Below are positions 53,591 through 62,519 of a DNA stretch of 64,000 nt, in pieces. A model generated the notes under the pieces. The model worked only from the letters and a program-made list of their open reading frames with translations, was not told the DNA's origin and did no database searches. The stretch comes from Thermasporomyces composti (lineage in GTDB: Bacteria; Actinomycetota; Actinomycetes; Propionibacteriales; Actinopolymorphaceae). Position numbers and translations under genes: made by a program. Every line of letters begins with the position of its first letter. Within the stretch, counting starts at the first letter, position 1. The stretch spans positions 2,728,001 through 2,792,000 of the forward strand of contig NZ_QTUC01000001.1 of assembly GCF_003386795.1 (NCBI RefSeq), read 5' to 3'.

Positions 53591-54490
53591 CTACTTGAGG
53601 GCACCACGGGTCAAGCCGGCGACGAACTGCCGCTGGAAGAAGATGAACACGAGGATCACCGGCAGCGAGGCCACCAAGGCTCCCGAAAGCAGCATGCCGT
53701 ACCGGTAGTCGTAGGGGCCGACGAGCGACGAGATCCCCAGGTTGAGGACGAACATGTCCGGGTCCGTGGTGATCACCAAGGGCCAGAAGAAGTCGTTCCA
53801 CAAGGTGAGGAACGTCAAGATGCCGAGGACCGCCAGGCCGGGACGCACCAGCGGCAGGACGATCCGCCACCAGATGCGGAACTCCGTCGCTCCGTCGACG
53901 CGGGCGGCGTCCAGCAGCTCGTTGGGAACCGCCAGGGTGTACTGCCGCATGAGGATGATGCCGAACGCGGTGACCGCTCGCGGAACGATGAGCCCTTCGT
54001 AGGTGTTGAACCAGCCGAACGTCCGCATGATCTCGAACTGCGGGACGAGCAGCACCTGCGTGGGCAGCAGGATCGTCGTCAGCATGATGACGAGCAGCAC
54101 GTTCTTGAACCGGAAGTCATGCTTGGCGAAGGCGAACCCGGCGAGCGAGGCGAGCAGGACGGCCAGGACCGTCCCGCTCACCGCGACGACGGCCGTGTTG
54201 AAGATCCATCGCAGCACGGGGAAGCCGGTGACCAGCGCCTCCATGTTCGACAGCGTCCACACCCGGGGGAGCAGGGTGAGGTCGGACGAGAAGATCTCCT
54301 CCTGGGGCTTGAACGCTCCGAACGCCATGTAGAGGTAGGGCACAACCTCGACCGTGACGCCGGCGAGCAGCACGAGGTGCAGGACGACGATGCCGGCGAG
54401 CGTCAGCCACCAACGTGGCGGCCGGTCGCGTCGCACTCGAACCGCGTAGTGTCGCCTCGACGCCTGTACTTCCTTGTCCACTACCGCCAT
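53591..54490 (-). CDS. Carbohydrate ABC transporter permease (MalG-like) of locus I
   Basis: 299 residues, six predicted helices, with the EAA-type docking loop (LLDAARVDGATEFRIWWRIV). GGAGAGGA lies about 10 bases before the ATG. Last gene of a three-gene importer operon on the minus strand; 69 bases separate its stop from the convergent oxidoreductase, without a clear hairpin. Confidence 0.88.
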   Translation of the reverse strand: MAVVDKEVQASRRHYAVRVRRDRPPRWWLTLAGIVVLHLVLLAGVTVEVVPYLYMAFGAFKPQEEIFSSDLTLLPRVWTLSNMEALVTGFPVLRWIFNTAVVAVSGTVLAVLLASLAGFAFAKHDFRFKNVLLVIMLTTILLPTQVLLVPQFEIMRTFGWFNTYEGLIVPRAVTAFGIILMRQYTLAVPNELLDAARVDGATEFRIWWRIVLPLVRPGLAVLGILTFLTLWNDFFWPLVITTDPDMFVLNLGISSLVGPYDYRYGMLLSGALVASLPVILVFIFFQRQFVAGLTRGALK

Positions 54491-54529
54491 GTCCGTGGCG
54501 TCCTCTCCGTGTCCGAGCCAGTGCGTCCG

Positions 54530-55471
54530 CTAGTCGCCGGGTGACGCCCAGCCGCCGAAAAGCTTGATGTTGATGGCCGAGACGATCAGCAAGAAGAACG
54601 TCATCACGTAGGCGATCGCGCTGGCGTAGCCGACGTTGAAGAACTGGAAGCCCTGGTTGTAGATGTAGAGCGTCACGGTGAGCGAGGCGTCGGCCGGACC
54701 GCCGCCGTCGGTCAGCAGCAACGGCAGCGCGAAGAGGTTGTACGAGCCGATGATCGCCTGGAGCACCACGAAGAGCGCGATGGGACGGAGCAACGGCATC
54801 GTGATGTACCGGAACGACTGCCAGCGTCCTGCTCCGTCGATCGCCGCGGCCTCGTAGAGATCGTTGTCAATGCCGTTGAGCCCGGCCATCCAGTACAGCG
54901 CGTTGATGCCCGTCCACGTCCACAGCCCCATCAGGACGATGGTGAACATCACGATGCCGCGGTCGGTCAGCCAGGCGACCGAGTCGAGCCCGATCCTGTT
55001 GAGGCCGAAGTTGAGCAGGCCGTACTGCTCGTCGAAAACGCGGGCGGCGATGACGGCGATGACCACCTCGGAGGTGAGGACGGGGAAGAAGAACGCGGTG
55101 CGAAAGAAGGTCTTCCACCGCACCCACCGGGAGTTGATCGCCAACGCCAGCAGAAGCGACAAGCCGCCGATGAGGACGATGCTGCCGATGGCGTAGAACG
55201 TGGTGTTCCGCATCGCGAGGGCGAAGCGCTCGTCGCTGAACAGGTGCAGGTAGTTGGTGAGTCCGGCGAACGACCGTTCCTCGAACCCGAAGCCCTTGGT
55301 GAAGCTGAGCCAGAAGGAATAGAGGATCGGGTACAAGCCGAAGATGAGAAAGAGAATGAAGAAGGGGGAGATGAAGAGGTACGGAGCGATCTGACGCTGG
55401 CGACGCCACCACCACTCCCGGGCCGGCTGGAAGGGCCGGCCGAGAGTGGACGCGAGTGTCGAGGCTGACAT
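54530..55471 (-). CDS. Carbohydrate ABC transporter permease (MalF-like) of locus I
   Basis: 313 residues, six predicted helices after a basic N-terminal segment (REWWWRRQRQIAPYLFISP). Docking loop EAAAIDGAGRWQSFRYITMP. Ends 39 bases before the second permease and starts 18 bases after the solute-binding gene, so all three are one transcript. Confidence 0.88.
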   Translation of the reverse strand: MSASTLASTLGRPFQPAREWWWRRQRQIAPYLFISPFFILFLIFGLYPILYSFWLSFTKGFGFEERSFAGLTNYLHLFSDERFALAMRNTTFYAIGSIVLIGGLSLLLALAINSRWVRWKTFFRTAFFFPVLTSEVVIAVIAARVFDEQYGLLNFGLNRIGLDSVAWLTDRGIVMFTIVLMGLWTWTGINALYWMAGLNGIDNDLYEAAAIDGAGRWQSFRYITMPLLRPIALFVVLQAIIGSYNLFALPLLLTDGGGPADASLTVTLYIYNQGFQFFNVGYASAIAYVMTFFLLIVSAINIKLFGGWASPGD

Positions 55472-55489
55472 GGGCGTGGTCCTTTCCCG

Positions 55490-56809
55490 CTAGGCCGTGG
55501 CGAACTCGATGGCGTCGAGCGCCTTCTGTTGGGCCCGTGCCAGTGCGTCCTTCGGCGACATGTCGAGGTCCTGGAGAGGAGGCGTCAGTCCGTGACGCAC
55601 GAAGACACTGGTGGTCTCGGGCCAGAACGGCGAGACATAGGTCGTGTTGATCTCCGGTGACACCTCGTTGATGAGGCTGCCGACTCGCTGACCGTCGAAG
55701 AACTCCATCGGCTGGGTCAGCACGGGGGCGTCGAAGGCCGGTCGGTAGGTCGGCCAGACCTGGCGCAGCTCGAAGTCCCCCAGCAACGCCTCGACGTTGG
55801 TGTGCTCGAAGAGCACGAAGTCCAGCGCCTCCTCGATGAACTCACTGGTGTTCAAGACGGCGACGCCGGTGCCGCCCTGGGTCGCCGTTCGCGAGCCGCC
55901 CTCGCTCCAGCGCGGGAACGGCATGAGGTGCCACTTGCCTTTGGTCTTGGGGATGTTCTGTTGGATGAAGCCACTGAACTGCCACGAGGGACCTAGCAGG
56001 GAGGCGATGCGTCCCTCCTCCAGCGCGATGTTGTAGCTGTGTCCTTGGGGGCGGTGGGTCGACCAACCATCCTTGAGGGCTTGCTGCATCCAGGTGAGAG
56101 TGCGCAGACTCTTCTCGCTGTCGAGGACCGGTTGGCCCTTCTCGTCGAAGAAGCCGCCGCCCTGCTGGAGCGTCATGAGCCACCACTGGCCCCAGTCCAG
56201 GTACTGCTGGTCGATCAGGTAGTTGCCGGTGTCCCGGTGGAAACGCTTGGCCTCCTCGACGAACTCGTCCCAGGTCTGAATCTCGGTGTTGACGCCGGCC
56301 TTTTCCCATATGTCCCAGCGGTAGCTCAGCAGACAGGCGTTGAGCTCGTTCCCGATGCCATAAACCTTTCCCTGCCAGGTCCAGGGGTCGGTCGCCGACG
56401 GGTGGTAGAGGTTGTCCCACTCGCCCATCTCGACCAGCTTGGGCTTGAGGTCGACGAACAGGACGTCACCTTTGATGTAGCGGGCGAACTGGCTGATCTC
56501 CACGTCAGCGATGTCGGGTCCGCCCGAGCGGGCCTGTGCGGTGACCAGGAGCTGGTCGTGCATCTGCCGATAGGGCAGAATCAGCCACTCGATCTCGAAG
56601 TCGGGGTTCTTGAGCCGCTTATAGAGCTCGAACGCTCGCTGTTGCCAGGCGATGCGCGTGTCCGTGAAGGCCCAGAAGCTGAGCTTCTTCTTCGCTCCGC
56701 GGTTGAAGTTCGGGGCTCTGCCACAGCCGGAGAGCAGAGACGATCCCGCCAGGCTCGCTCCCACCGCGGCAGCCTTCTTGAGAACGGACCTCCTGCTAAT
56801 CTGCGCCAT
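55490..56809 (-). CDS. Carbohydrate ABC transporter solute-binding lipoprotein of locus I
   Basis: 439 residues. Twin-arginine signal SRRSVLKKAA at the N-terminus and lipobox LSGC with Cys29. Mature part begins KKLSFWAFTDTRIAWQQRAF, a CUT1-type receptor. It leads a solute-binding/permease/permease operon that lacks an ATPase gene; as in locus B, a shared MsiK-like ATPase is expected. Its substrate is probably an oligosaccharide handled by the neighbouring GHL6 glycosidase and oxidoreductases (inference). Confidence 0.88.
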   Translation of the reverse strand: MAQISRRSVLKKAAAVGASLAGSSLLSGCGRAPNFNRGAKKKLSFWAFTDTRIAWQQRAFELYKRLKNPDFEIEWLILPYRQMHDQLLVTAQARSGGPDIADVEISQFARYIKGDVLFVDLKPKLVEMGEWDNLYHPSATDPWTWQGKVYGIGNELNACLLSYRWDIWEKAGVNTEIQTWDEFVEEAKRFHRDTGNYLIDQQYLDWGQWWLMTLQQGGGFFDEKGQPVLDSEKSLRTLTWMQQALKDGWSTHRPQGHSYNIALEEGRIASLLGPSWQFSGFIQQNIPKTKGKWHLMPFPRWSEGGSRTATQGGTGVAVLNTSEFIEEALDFVLFEHTNVEALLGDFELRQVWPTYRPAFDAPVLTQPMEFFDGQRVGSLINEVSPEINTTYVSPFWPETTSVFVRHGLTPPLQDLDMSPKDALARAQQKALDAIEFATA

Positions 56810-57477
56810 GCTCGTGAAGCCTCCAAGCGCTCGAAGACACGAAGAGGCCGCACATCAGGCAGCTGGCCGAGGGCCGGTGAATCCTGAGGACTTCCCGTGC
56901 GAGCCCTGTGTCGTTGTCCCGGATTCAGCTTGTCGTCAGGCGTGGCGGACGTATTCAGATGTGTCTCGACGCCGCTGAGCGGCGCCGACCGGAGTCTGAT
57001 GGTGATGTCGGCGCTCGTGAGCGTATCGCCCGGCCTGATAGCGGGCCAGCCCGTGACCTCAATCGGACCCCGTTCCACACACGGCGTTCGAGATTTCGGC
57101 TGGTGGACCCACGGGAGGGCGTCGAATTTCCGGGTCGACGCGTGAGGCAGTCGGTCGTCCTGTCCATTTTTCCGTCAGAGATGTCTCCTCGTTATCGCCA
57201 ATTTCACGCCGGTGCCCGGTGTGGGCTCTTGCGGCTGGTCACGATCTCGCGACGACACGGGGCGCCCCGGGCGTGGGTGGCTGGCTGTCGAGCTGGCTCT
57301 GTCGAGGACCGGTCGTGACGAGAGGAAGTGCCAGGGTGGGACCACGGTCTGGTGGGTATGGGGACCGGGAAGGTCTCGCGGGCGTGGAGACGTTGTGCGG
57401 GGAGTACGCCGCGAGGCGACGGGGACCGTTGTGGTCAGCTTCGGCCGGCCATCGGAGGGAAGTGGCGGTCCGTCGTG
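56810..57477. other. Divergent intergenic region (668 bases) upstream of kaiB, no gene supported
   Basis: Lies between the solute-binding gene (minus) and kaiB (plus). Open frames are present on both strands but none has a ribosome binding site plus recognisable product. TCCAAGCGCTCGAA at 56822-56835 has a palindromic AGCGCT core, as in LacI-family sugar operators, close to the transporter start. GGAGGGAAG at 57454-57462 is the likely kaiB ribosome binding site. Promoters could not be placed. Confidence 0.45.
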
Positions 57478-57780
57478 ATGAGGTACAAGTTTCGGGTTTA
57501 TGTCGCCGGCCACACCGAGCGCTCGGAGGCAGCGGTCGCGAATCTCACGGCGGTGTGCGAGACCTACGTGCCCGGGAGGTACGAGATCGAGGTCATCGAT
57601 GTCTCCGAGCGTCCCGATCTGGCAGAGACCGAGAGCATCGTCGCCACACCGACCGTCGTCCGCCAGGGGGTCATCCCGCAGCGTCGGGTGATAGGTGACC
57701 TTTCGGACTCCGCCCGCACAGCCGCCGCGCTCGGCCTACCGGCGGTAGGCGAGCCCTATGGGGAGCTGTGGTGGACATGA
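57478..57780 (+). CDS. kaiB: KaiB-family circadian clock-like protein
   Basis: 100 residues, almost the length of cyanobacterial KaiB. YKFRVYVAGHTERSE matches the KaiB N-terminal strand and loop (LYVAGNTPNS in Synechococcus); IVATPTVV holds the conserved cis-Pro region and RRVIGDLSD the hallmark IGDLSD. In the clock, KaiB refolds to a thioredoxin-like form and binds the KaiC CI ring; those core positions are kept. Start ATG with GGAGGGAAG 15 bases upstream; a GTG three bases earlier is equally possible. Its stop overlaps the kaiC-like start by ATGA. Confidence 0.88.
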   Translation: MRYKFRVYVAGHTERSEAAVANLTAVCETYVPGRYEIEVIDVSERPDLAETESIVATPTVVRQGVIPQRRVIGDLSDSARTAAALGLPAVGEPYGELWWT

Positions 57781-59279
57781 TCAGTGCACAAGCTCAGCTC
57801 GACCGGACGCCGACCGGGATCAGCGGCCTGGACGAGGTGATGATGGGGGGTCTTCCCTCGGGGCGGACCACGCTCGTCACGGGGACGTCGGGGAGCGGGA
57901 AGACCGTGGTCGCGATGGAGTTTCTCGCGCACGGGATCGCGGAGTTCGGCGAGCCGGGCGTCTTCGTCACTTTCGAGGAGAGCGCCCCGGTGATCCGGGC
58001 GTGCCTGCTTGAGTTCGGCTTTCCGATCGAGGAGTGGGAACGCGAGGGACGATGGGAGTTTCTCGAGGTGCCGACGGACCTCACCGACAGCGTGGAGGTC
58101 GTCGGCAGGTATGACTTCGGAGCTCTCGTCGCGCGCATCCAGCGCGTGGTCGAGCGCACGCACGCCAAACGCCTCGTCATCGATTCCTTGGGTGCGCTCT
58201 TCGCCACCCTTCCCGACAAGCGGTACGTGCGGGTCGAGCTCGTCCGCATTGCCCAAGCGCTGGCTCGCATGGGCGTCACGGCGATGATGACCTCGGAACG
58301 GAGGGAGGAGTACGACGGGATTTCCCTCCACGGTGTCGAGGAGTTCGTGCTCGACAACGTCCTCGTGCTGCGCAACGTCTTGGACGAGGAACGCCGGCGT
58401 CGCACGGTCGAGGTCGTGAAGTTCCGGGGCGCTCCCCACCACACCGGTGAGTGGTTGTTCACGATCGACCCGCGGCGAGGCGTCACGGTGCTTCCCCTCG
58501 CCTTCATGTCGTCGCGAGGTCAGGCGTCGACCGAGCGGGTCTCGACCGGTGTCGCCGAGCTCGATGACATGTGCGGGGGCGGCCTCTTCCGGGACGCCAT
58601 CGCGTTGGTGCGCGGTCCCGCGGGAAGCGGCAAGACGCTGCTGGCGTTCCACTTCCTCGCCACGGCGTTCCGGACGGGAGAGCGCTGCCTGTTGGTCACC
58701 TTCGACGAGTCGCGGGCGCGGGTCGTTCGGGACGCGGCCGGATGGGGCGTGGACATACCCGCGATGGAGCGCACCGGACAGCTGCGGTTGCGCGCGACCT
58801 ATCCGGAGGCCGAGTCCCTCGAGGAGCACTTCCTGACGCTGAAGCGCGACATCGAGGAGTTTCGTCCCGACCGGTTCGTCCTGGACCCGCTGTCGGCGCT
58901 CGCCCGGATCGCTCCTCGGCAGAGCGCCCTCGACCTCGTGGTGGCGCTGACCACCGTTCTTCGCGAGCACGCGGTGACGTCGTTGCTCACCTCGTCGCTG
59001 CTCCGACCGGGCGCGCTGTTCGGAGCGGCAGGACCGAGCGGGTTGTCGAGTCTCATCGACGTGCTCATCCTGCTCCACTACCGGGAGTGGGACGGGCGGC
59101 TCGAGCGGTCGATCGCGATCCCGCAAGTCCGCGGCTCAGACCACGACCTGGCGGTTCGGCCGTTCGTCATCGACTCGTCCGGTATCCACATCGAGACAGC
59201 CGAGCGTGTCATCCCGGATGCGCGTGCCCCGGCGGCCTGGCCGTTCGAGGCCGGTGAACCGCAAGGAGGAAACGTCTGA
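57777..59279 (+). CDS. kaiC: KaiC-family tandem RecA-like ATPase/autokinase
   Basis: 500 residues with two KaiC domains. CI: Walker A GTSGSGKT (36-43) and the catalytic Glu pair E67-E68 (VTFEES). CII: Walker A GPAGSGKT (280-287) and D310-E311 (VTFDESRA), where cyanobacterial KaiC has Glu-Glu; the first of these is the base for autophosphorylation. Ser424-Ser425 (GLSSLIDVLILLHY) align with the phosphosites Ser431-Thr432. The C-terminal tail that binds KaiA is short, and no kaiA is present. ATG in an ATGA overlap with kaiB; GTG at 57768 is an alternative. Role could be a timer or stress-responsive signalling ATPase. Confidence 0.88.
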   Translation: MISAQAQLDRTPTGISGLDEVMMGGLPSGRTTLVTGTSGSGKTVVAMEFLAHGIAEFGEPGVFVTFEESAPVIRACLLEFGFPIEEWEREGRWEFLEVPTDLTDSVEVVGRYDFGALVARIQRVVERTHAKRLVIDSLGALFATLPDKRYVRVELVRIAQALARMGVTAMMTSERREEYDGISLHGVEEFVLDNVLVLRNVLDEERRRRTVEVVKFRGAPHHTGEWLFTIDPRRGVTVLPLAFMSSRGQASTERVSTGVAELDDMCGGGLFRDAIALVRGPAGSGKTLLAFHFLATAFRTGERCLLVTFDESRARVVRDAAGWGVDIPAMERTGQLRLRATYPEAESLEEHFLTLKRDIEEFRPDRFVLDPLSALARIAPRQSALDLVVALTTVLREHAVTSLLTSSLLRPGALFGAAGPSGLSSLIDVLILLHYREWDGRLERSIAIPQVRGSDHDLAVRPFVIDSSGIHIETAERVIPDARAPAAWPFEAGEPQGGNV

Positions 59280-59312: not shown

Positions 59313-59348
59313 CCCCTTGCCTCGCCCGGGGCACGAGCGAGGCAGGGG
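59313..59348. terminator. Strong hairpin after kaiC
   Basis: CCCC-T-TGCCTCGC pairs with GCGAGGCA-GGGG (8 bp, a one-base bulge, then 4 bp) around an 11-base loop. It lies between the kaiC stop and the stop of the convergent small gene, so it likely ends both transcripts. Confidence 0.75.
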
Positions 59349-59367: not shown

Positions 59368-59529
59368 TTACTCGCTGATCGCCTCCCGAGCCCGGTCGGC
59401 CGCGTCGCGGGCGCCGGACTCGTTCATGCCGGACCTGGCCTGGTCGTCCCGCATCTGCTGCTCTTGTGCGGCACGATCCTTGGCCTTGGCCTTCTCCGCC
59501 TTGTGCTTCGCCTTCTCGCGGGCACCCAT
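59368..59529 (-). CDS. Small Lys/Ala-rich helical protein, unknown function
   Basis: 53 residues, MGAREKAKHKAEKAKAKDRA then QQMRDDQARSG, ending DAADRAREAISE. Wholly charged and helical, no membrane segment. AAGGAGGA sits 6 bases before the ATG, a near-perfect site, which supports expression. Reminds of actinobacterial stress-induced small proteins but I cannot name a family. Confidence 0.6.
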   Translation of the reverse strand: MGAREKAKHKAEKAKAKDRAAQEQQMRDDQARSGMNESGARDAADRAREAISE

Positions 59530-59709
59530 GACGTTCCTCCTTGCGTGATGTGCGCCCCGGAGGGCACCTGCCGAGCGTCTACCCGCGAGCTCCTGTGGAC
59601 GAACCGGCGTCGACGCCACGTCCACCAAGGTGCGAACTTCGGCGCGGACGGTGACGCGGGGTGACCCCGTTGGACAGACACCGTTGGACGGGCCCCGTCA
59701 GACGGGACC

Positions 59710-62081: not shown

Positions 62082-62519
62082 ATGGTGGGACGAGACGCGG
62101 GAAATGGGCACCGTGTGACGTTCACCGAGGTGATGAGCTGGGCCGCCCGAGGTTTCGACGGGCTCGGAGTCGTCGTCCTCCTCGTCGGTCTGGTGTGGTC
62201 TCTCGTGCTTGCGGCGCGCATCTGGCGGCGCAGTGGGGAAGGCCGACAGGGGTATCACGCGCTCCGGGAATCCTTCGGTGGCGTGCTTCTCCTCGCCGTG
62301 GAGATCCTGGTGGCGGCCGACCTGATCAGGACCGTCGCCGTCGCGCCGACGCTCGAGAACGTGGCGGGCCTGGGGCTGGTCGTGGTGATCCGGACCCTGC
62401 TCAGCTTCTCGCTCCAGATCGAGATGGAAGGCGTGGTTCCGTGGCGGCGTGGCCTGACCGGCGGGCTCGGCCGGGCGACGGCGCGGGCGAACCCGCCCCT
62501 GGAGCCGCCACCTGGGTGA
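62082..62519 (+). CDS. DUF1622 family membrane protein
   Basis: Up to 145 residues with three hydrophobic segments: GLGVVVLLVGLVWSLVLAA, FGGVLLLAVEILVAADLI, and LGLVVVIRTLLSFSLQIEME. The tail RTLLSFSLQIEMEG is typical of DUF1622. A GTG at 62115 (VTFTEVMSW) is an alternative start that fits the family length better; neither has a strong ribosome binding site. Starts 17 bases after the TetR stop and may be co-transcribed. Confidence 0.72.
   Translation: MVGRDAGNGHRVTFTEVMSWAARGFDGLGVVVLLVGLVWSLVLAARIWRRSGEGRQGYHALRESFGGVLLLAVEILVAADLIRTVAVAPTLENVAGLGLVVVIRTLLSFSLQIEMEGVVPWRRGLTGGLGRATARANPPLEPPPG

Follow-up and report, generated by a model that had tools for sequence, protein, structure and literature searches.

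A KaiA-less kaiB-kaiC operon in Thermasporomyces composti and an actinobacterial KaiC clade with an altered CII active site

The window analysed here is a 64,000-nt stretch of the Thermasporomyces composti genome (contig NZ_QTUC01000001.1, positions 2728001-2792000). Its plus strand contains a kaiB gene (57478..57780, ATG at 57478, TGA ending at 57780, 100 aa), with a possible alternative GTG start at 57475, directly 5' of the ATG. It is followed by a double-domain kaiC gene (57777..59279), which encodes 500 aa from the ATG at 57777, or 503 aa from the first in-frame GTG at 57768. The kaiB TGA and the kaiC ATG overlap in an ATGA junction (57777..57780). The KaiB product matches the KaiB family (PF07689) with E 7.7e-21 (74.1 bits, against a gathering cut-off of 27), matches PDB KaiB entries with E values down to 7e-22, and contains the YVAG, ATPT and IGDLSD motifs. 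The KaiC product matches the KaiC domain (PF06745, E 6.4e-105) over two stretches, indicating two KaiC domains, and matches PDB KaiC with E 1.9e-139; it passes the NCBIfam model PRK09302 (528.9 bits, cut-off 408), but falls below the stricter circ_KaiC model TIGR02655 (413.7, cut-off 546.25). Because both proteins lie far above the Pfam cut-offs, chance resemblance can be set aside. The KaiB hallmarks, the ATGA junction and the two KaiC P-loops, all described in a sequence-only reading of this DNA, were found again.

Structure prediction agrees with these assignments. The AlphaFold2 model of KaiB (pLDDT 82) has a beta-alpha-beta-alpha-beta-beta-alpha order and, as one predicted state only, looks like the fold-switched form; its best Foldseek matches are the KaiB proteins of R. 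sphaeroides and Legionella and the fold-switched KaiB of T. elongatus. The AlphaFold2 model of KaiC, built from four sequences, has an overall fold borne out by structure search, and at pLDDT 66 and pTM 0.47 it serves for that fold and not for active-site geometry. Both frames are open, with coding-type GC3. This actinobacterium carries a true kaiB-kaiC operon without kaiA.

The host genome (Actinopolymorphaceae; one contig, 4.37 Mb, 97.6% complete) encodes one KaiB domain and one double-domain KaiC. KaiA (PF07688) gave no match in this genome up to E 10, with the S. elongatus control above the cut-off, in agreement with the earlier description of the operon as KaiA-less. The same reading had seen no SasA-like kinase or response regulator nearby, and this holds: none of the 26 receiver domains of the genome lies within the window, and the genome has no KaiB domain other than that of kaiB itself (next best match E 0.1), and so none of the SasA type. 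Since the upstream gene is divergent and the downstream gene convergent, kaiBC stands alone, as had been proposed. Upstream, across an intergenic stretch of ~670 bp, lies a minus-strand ABC transporter of the sugar type, made up of two permeases and a binding protein (53591-56809); its solute-binding protein gene (55490-56809) is the one nearest to kaiB. Downstream, a small Lys/Ala-rich minus-strand ORF (59368-59628; an inner ATG gives a product beginning MGAREKAKHKAEKAKAKDRAAQEQQ) has no Pfam match. Between the convergent genes lies a G+C-rich plus-strand hairpin (59314..59348, 12-bp main stem; region MFE -50.8 kcal/mol, z -3.1). The hairpin said to close the operon is thus present and strong, but, lacking a T-run, it falls short of the standard form of an intrinsic terminator, and a consensus terminator scan found no terminator-like site there. 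Further along the plus strand, the window also encodes a DUF1622 protein (62082-62519, PF07784, E 1e-19).

The relationships of the window KaiC were studied in a 51-row tree, drawn mainly from whole genomes and plasmid records, from which distant outgroups and the Synechocystis KaiC2/KaiC3 reference sequences were left out. In the phylogeny that had been suggested as a check, the window KaiC groups with double-domain KaiCs that have a KaiB partner rather than with KaiC-like ATPases that lack one. It falls, on a long terminal branch (0.69), in a 12-row clade with 100/100 support, comprising the window, nine Actinopolymorpha copies and two from another actinomycete family, with L146 as sister. 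A tree of the CI half by itself gives the same clade (bootstrap 94), so the altered CII columns described below do not create it. Two architectures are represented in the tree. In the first, which includes the window, kaiB precedes a kaiC of ~500 aa; this KaiB-first superclade, the window's half of the tree, also holds cyanobacterial, chloroflexal, planctomycete and other actinobacterial KaiCs. In the second, kaiC precedes one or two kaiB genes, often with a kinase behind, and KaiC, mostly 560-620 aa, ends in an extended C-terminal tail; Cereibacter (Rhodobacter) sphaeroides is an example. These KaiC2-type rows make up a clade of their own (100/100). A KaiC2 label for the window protein, prompted by its Ser-Ser pair, was rejected on phylogeny, gene order and its short tail.

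A double-domain KaiC together with KaiB is present in seven of eight sampled Actinopolymorphaceae genomes, and Actinopolymorpha rutila DSM 18448 has three kaiBC pairs (one KaiC copy is at position 4436992 of NZ_JACBZH010000001.1). Strong KaiB matches are patchy outside the family (14/392 genomes sampled at the order level, 9/395 at the class level and 18/396 at the phylum level). Paralogue turnover in Actinopolymorpha is seen in one relative (G757), which has, besides an intact kaiBC, a kaiC without its CI half (L116, 8001-8993) and a kaiC fragment (L117, 8491-9201). Separately, weak KaiB-domain matches (E 1e-6 to 1e-3, profile positions 17-78) occur in ~25-30 genomes of one actinomycete family, mostly of one genus (loci L018-L038, e.g. 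G241:C42:150336-150512), and possibly represent another thioredoxin-like family.

The two halves of the window KaiC differ in how far their active sites are conserved. The CI half has its P-loop (GTSGSGKT, 57882..57905, plus strand, as for all KaiC features here), followed 3' by the catalytic Glu pair (57975-57980, in FEES), and K224/R226 (KFR) and the R-linker are intact. The CII half has an intact P-loop (GPAGSGKT, 58614..58637) and keeps D378, R385, R451 and R459, so that ATP binding by CII is likely. At the catalytic E318 position, however, it has Asp (GAC, 58704..58706, followed directly by an intact E319 codon), at T426 Gly (59031-59033) and at K457 Gln (CAA, 59124..59126); the S431/T432 phosphorylation positions are Ser-Ser (59046..59051). 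These changes were missed on first reading because both P-loops are intact.

The alterations are common to the whole clade. All 12 KaiCs, the window included, have E318D, K457Q and R393L and have lost T426 and H429, and two have also lost E319; L169, a further member found later, shows the same pattern (D318, A431-G432, Q457). Outside the clade, E318 is present in 40 of 41 KaiCs, and K457 and E319 in all 41; the sole Asp318 belongs to a KaiB-less KaiC-like protein. Within the clade, S431 is kept in the window only, with Thr in two others, and the T432 position is Ser, Gly or Ala; 10 of the 11 other aligned members lack Ser/Thr at 431, 432 or both, so the Ser-Ser pair is not kept by selection clade-wide. 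Single phosphosite losses also occur outside the clade (e.g. L153, L146). On the clade stem branch, CII accumulated 0.34 changes per site against 0.08 for CI, about four times more. Conserved positions are kept at 92.5% in CI and 75.5% in CII, measured against 19 reference sequences picked because their motifs are intact, and at 94.6% in KaiB; for the two KaiC halves, the unselected counts over 41 KaiCs therefore weigh more. By sequence, the clade has kept the N-terminal ATPase half and KaiB and rebuilt the C-terminal autokinase half.

Gene neighbourhoods also differ between the altered clade and actinobacteria with an intact CII. In three of four intact-CII loci tested, a receiver-domain gene precedes kaiB (L121, L143 and L152; not L124), and in three of the four kaiC is followed by a PAS kinase (L121, L124) or a PAS-GGDEF protein (L143). 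None of the altered-clade loci showed a receiver gene 5' of kaiB. Three of its loci have the order kaiB-kaiC-PAS histidine kinase (L126, L127, L169), and four Actinopolymorpha copies have, 3' of kaiC, a DosS-type-like GAF protein resembling a histidine kinase, in which the phospho-accepting His is Cys or Tyr (L109, 7198-8886; L111, 10547-12235; L113, 11218-12915; L115, 10289-11863). A linked PAS kinase or GAF gene is absent at the window and at five of nine Actinopolymorpha copies. Linked phospho-signalling parts were lost alongside the KaiC change, a correlation within one clade only. Elsewhere in the window's genome, an unlinked GAF-GAF histidine kinase with an intact His (G000:C1:757150-758802), which shares 35% identity with the GAF pseudo-kinase linked to kaiC, is a candidate partner of KaiBC.

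The residues altered in CII include ones on which the S. elongatus clock depends. In that system, E318 activates T432/S431 for phosphoryl transfer, and K294, K457 and R459 bind the phosphates of ATP (PMC2777353). Both E318D and E318A are arrhythmic, with the loss of phosphoryl transfer ascribed to E318A only and not to E318D (PMC2777353), and replacement of T426, S431 or T432 by Ala abolishes the rhythm (PMC2778140). The KaiB of R. sphaeroides recognises CI in its post-hydrolysis state, and phosphorylation influences this binding only marginally (PMC10076222). In surveys, the CII motifs are highly conserved across KaiCs (PMC5520375, PMC6989803), and kinase activity was reported for every KaiC tested (PMC5520375). 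A search of the open-access literature turned up no papers on what KaiBC does in actinobacteria or on naturally occurring KaiCs deficient in kinase activity. Phosphorylation is regarded as the core of Kai timing. We know of no biochemistry for any member of the 12-row clade.

The reading that we favour, with a probability of roughly 0.55, is that KaiB-KaiC acts as a switch that responds to ATP/ADP and is driven by the CI ring, its phosphorylation memory having been weakened or lost. By analogy with published work on other KaiBCs, ATP-bound KaiC would form hexamers, the CI ring would slowly hydrolyze ATP, and the ADP-bound CI ring would allow docking of fold-switched KaiB, so that the amount of KaiB-KaiC complex would report the cellular ATP/ADP state. 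CII would still bind ATP, with phosphate transfer poor or nil, and the phosphorylation memory behind a 24-h clock would consequently be weak or gone. A KaiBC working with little or no phosphorylation would be allowed by the published roles of E318, T426 and K457 together with the binding of KaiB to CI in R. sphaeroides. The sequence nevertheless leaves room for kinase activity, as the substitute Asp is itself acidic, E319 is retained and both window phosphosites are Ser, so that weak phosphorylation of the window Ser-Ser pair could still occur. The suggestion of a timer or an energy-signalling ATPase made from the window alone thus survives in its second part, energy signalling being plausible, while a clock is without support, E318, T426 and K457 being replaced clade-wide.

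A working KaiA-less hourglass timer, in which the Ser-Ser pair is autophosphorylated despite D318 and Q457 and the system is reset by KaiB and a falling ATP/ADP ratio as in R. sphaeroides and R. palustris, is possible, though doubtful. KaiA-less KaiBC systems do act as timers elsewhere (PMC10076222, PMC4794148), KaiB and CI are well conserved, and the window has Ser at both 431 and 432. Such a timer would, however, have to work with R393L in addition to E318D, T426G and K457Q, with a phosphosite pair that nearly all relatives have broken, and with a 25-aa tail in place of the ~100-aa C-terminal coiled coil that drives KaiA-independent phosphorylation in R. sphaeroides. The timer or clock reading is weaker than that of a switch: changes fixed across the clade at residues that the S. 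elongatus clock needs for autophosphorylation make an energy-state switch the likelier of the two.

The genes found beside kaiBC in other actinobacteria, whether receiver, PAS kinase and GGDEF genes at intact-CII loci or the PAS kinases and GAF pseudo-kinases of the altered clade, together with the unlinked His-intact kinase of the window's genome, would also fit a KaiB-KaiC that serves as the input module of a two-component pathway, merely gating a histidine kinase encoded elsewhere in the genome. This is improbable, as the linkage is missing at the window and at most of the Actinopolymorpha copies, and the unlinked kinase, which looks like a common DosS-type enzyme, may have nothing to do with KaiBC. 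Least credible, and very unlikely, is that kaiBC is a weakly constrained relic near loss, without an important function in the lineage. The long terminal branch of the window KaiC, the truncated and broken kaiC copies of G757 and the loss of conserved CII positions point that way; against it stand the open, coding-type frames, the presence of kaiBC in nearly all sampled genomes of the family, the high retention of conserved positions in CI and KaiB, and CII changes that are specific and shared, not random.

Extended to the lineage, a more tentative proposal, somewhat short of even odds, is that these Actinomycetes lack the phosphorylation cycle, keep the CI ATPase and KaiB, and use them as an ATP/ADP switch that in some species is coupled to a histidine kinase or pseudo-kinase. 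The point that the first reading overlooked, an altered CII active site common to a whole clade, matters here: a clade that has fixed the clock-stopping E318D of S. elongatus while keeping KaiB and CI would set the function of the CI ATPase and KaiB apart from the phosphorylation timer and, if so, an independent role of CI and KaiB would become testable in culturable heterotrophs.

Among known systems, the closest to the window are the Actinopolymorpha KaiBCs (e.g. A. rutila L039) and those of L126, L127 and L169, from three genomes of another actinomycete family, which have the same kaiB-kaiC order, near-contiguous or overlapping, and KaiCs 50-54% identical to that of the window, with the same E318D, K457Q and loss of T426. 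Unlike the window, several of these loci encode a PAS kinase or GAF pseudo-kinase 3' of kaiC, and their 431/432 positions are Ala-Ser, Thr-Ser, Ala-Gly, Ala-Ala or Thr-Gly instead of Ser-Ser. The intact-CII actinobacterial systems (L121, L124, L143, L151, L152, L146) share the KaiB-first order, the KaiC of ~500 aa and the superclade; by contrast, their CII Glu pair, K457 and phosphosites are intact (except T432 in L146), and their loci often have a receiver-domain gene on one side and a gene for a PAS kinase or GGDEF protein on the other. The KaiC2-type hourglass of R. sphaeroides and R. palustris resembles the window in lacking KaiA, in its Ser-Ser phosphosites and in the proposed ADP-dependent binding of KaiB, but differs in its kaiC-kaiB-histidine kinase order, its placement in a separate clade and its C-terminal extension of ~100 aa (past T. 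elongatus position 482, 92-119 aa in most KaiC2-type rows). The cyanobacterial S. elongatus and T. elongatus systems share the double-domain KaiC (~42% identity to the window KaiC in the fold search), kaiB upstream of kaiC, and an intact CI ATPase site and R-linker; unlike them, the window has no KaiA and no comparable KaiA-binding tail, and its KaiC carries E318D, T426G and K457Q.
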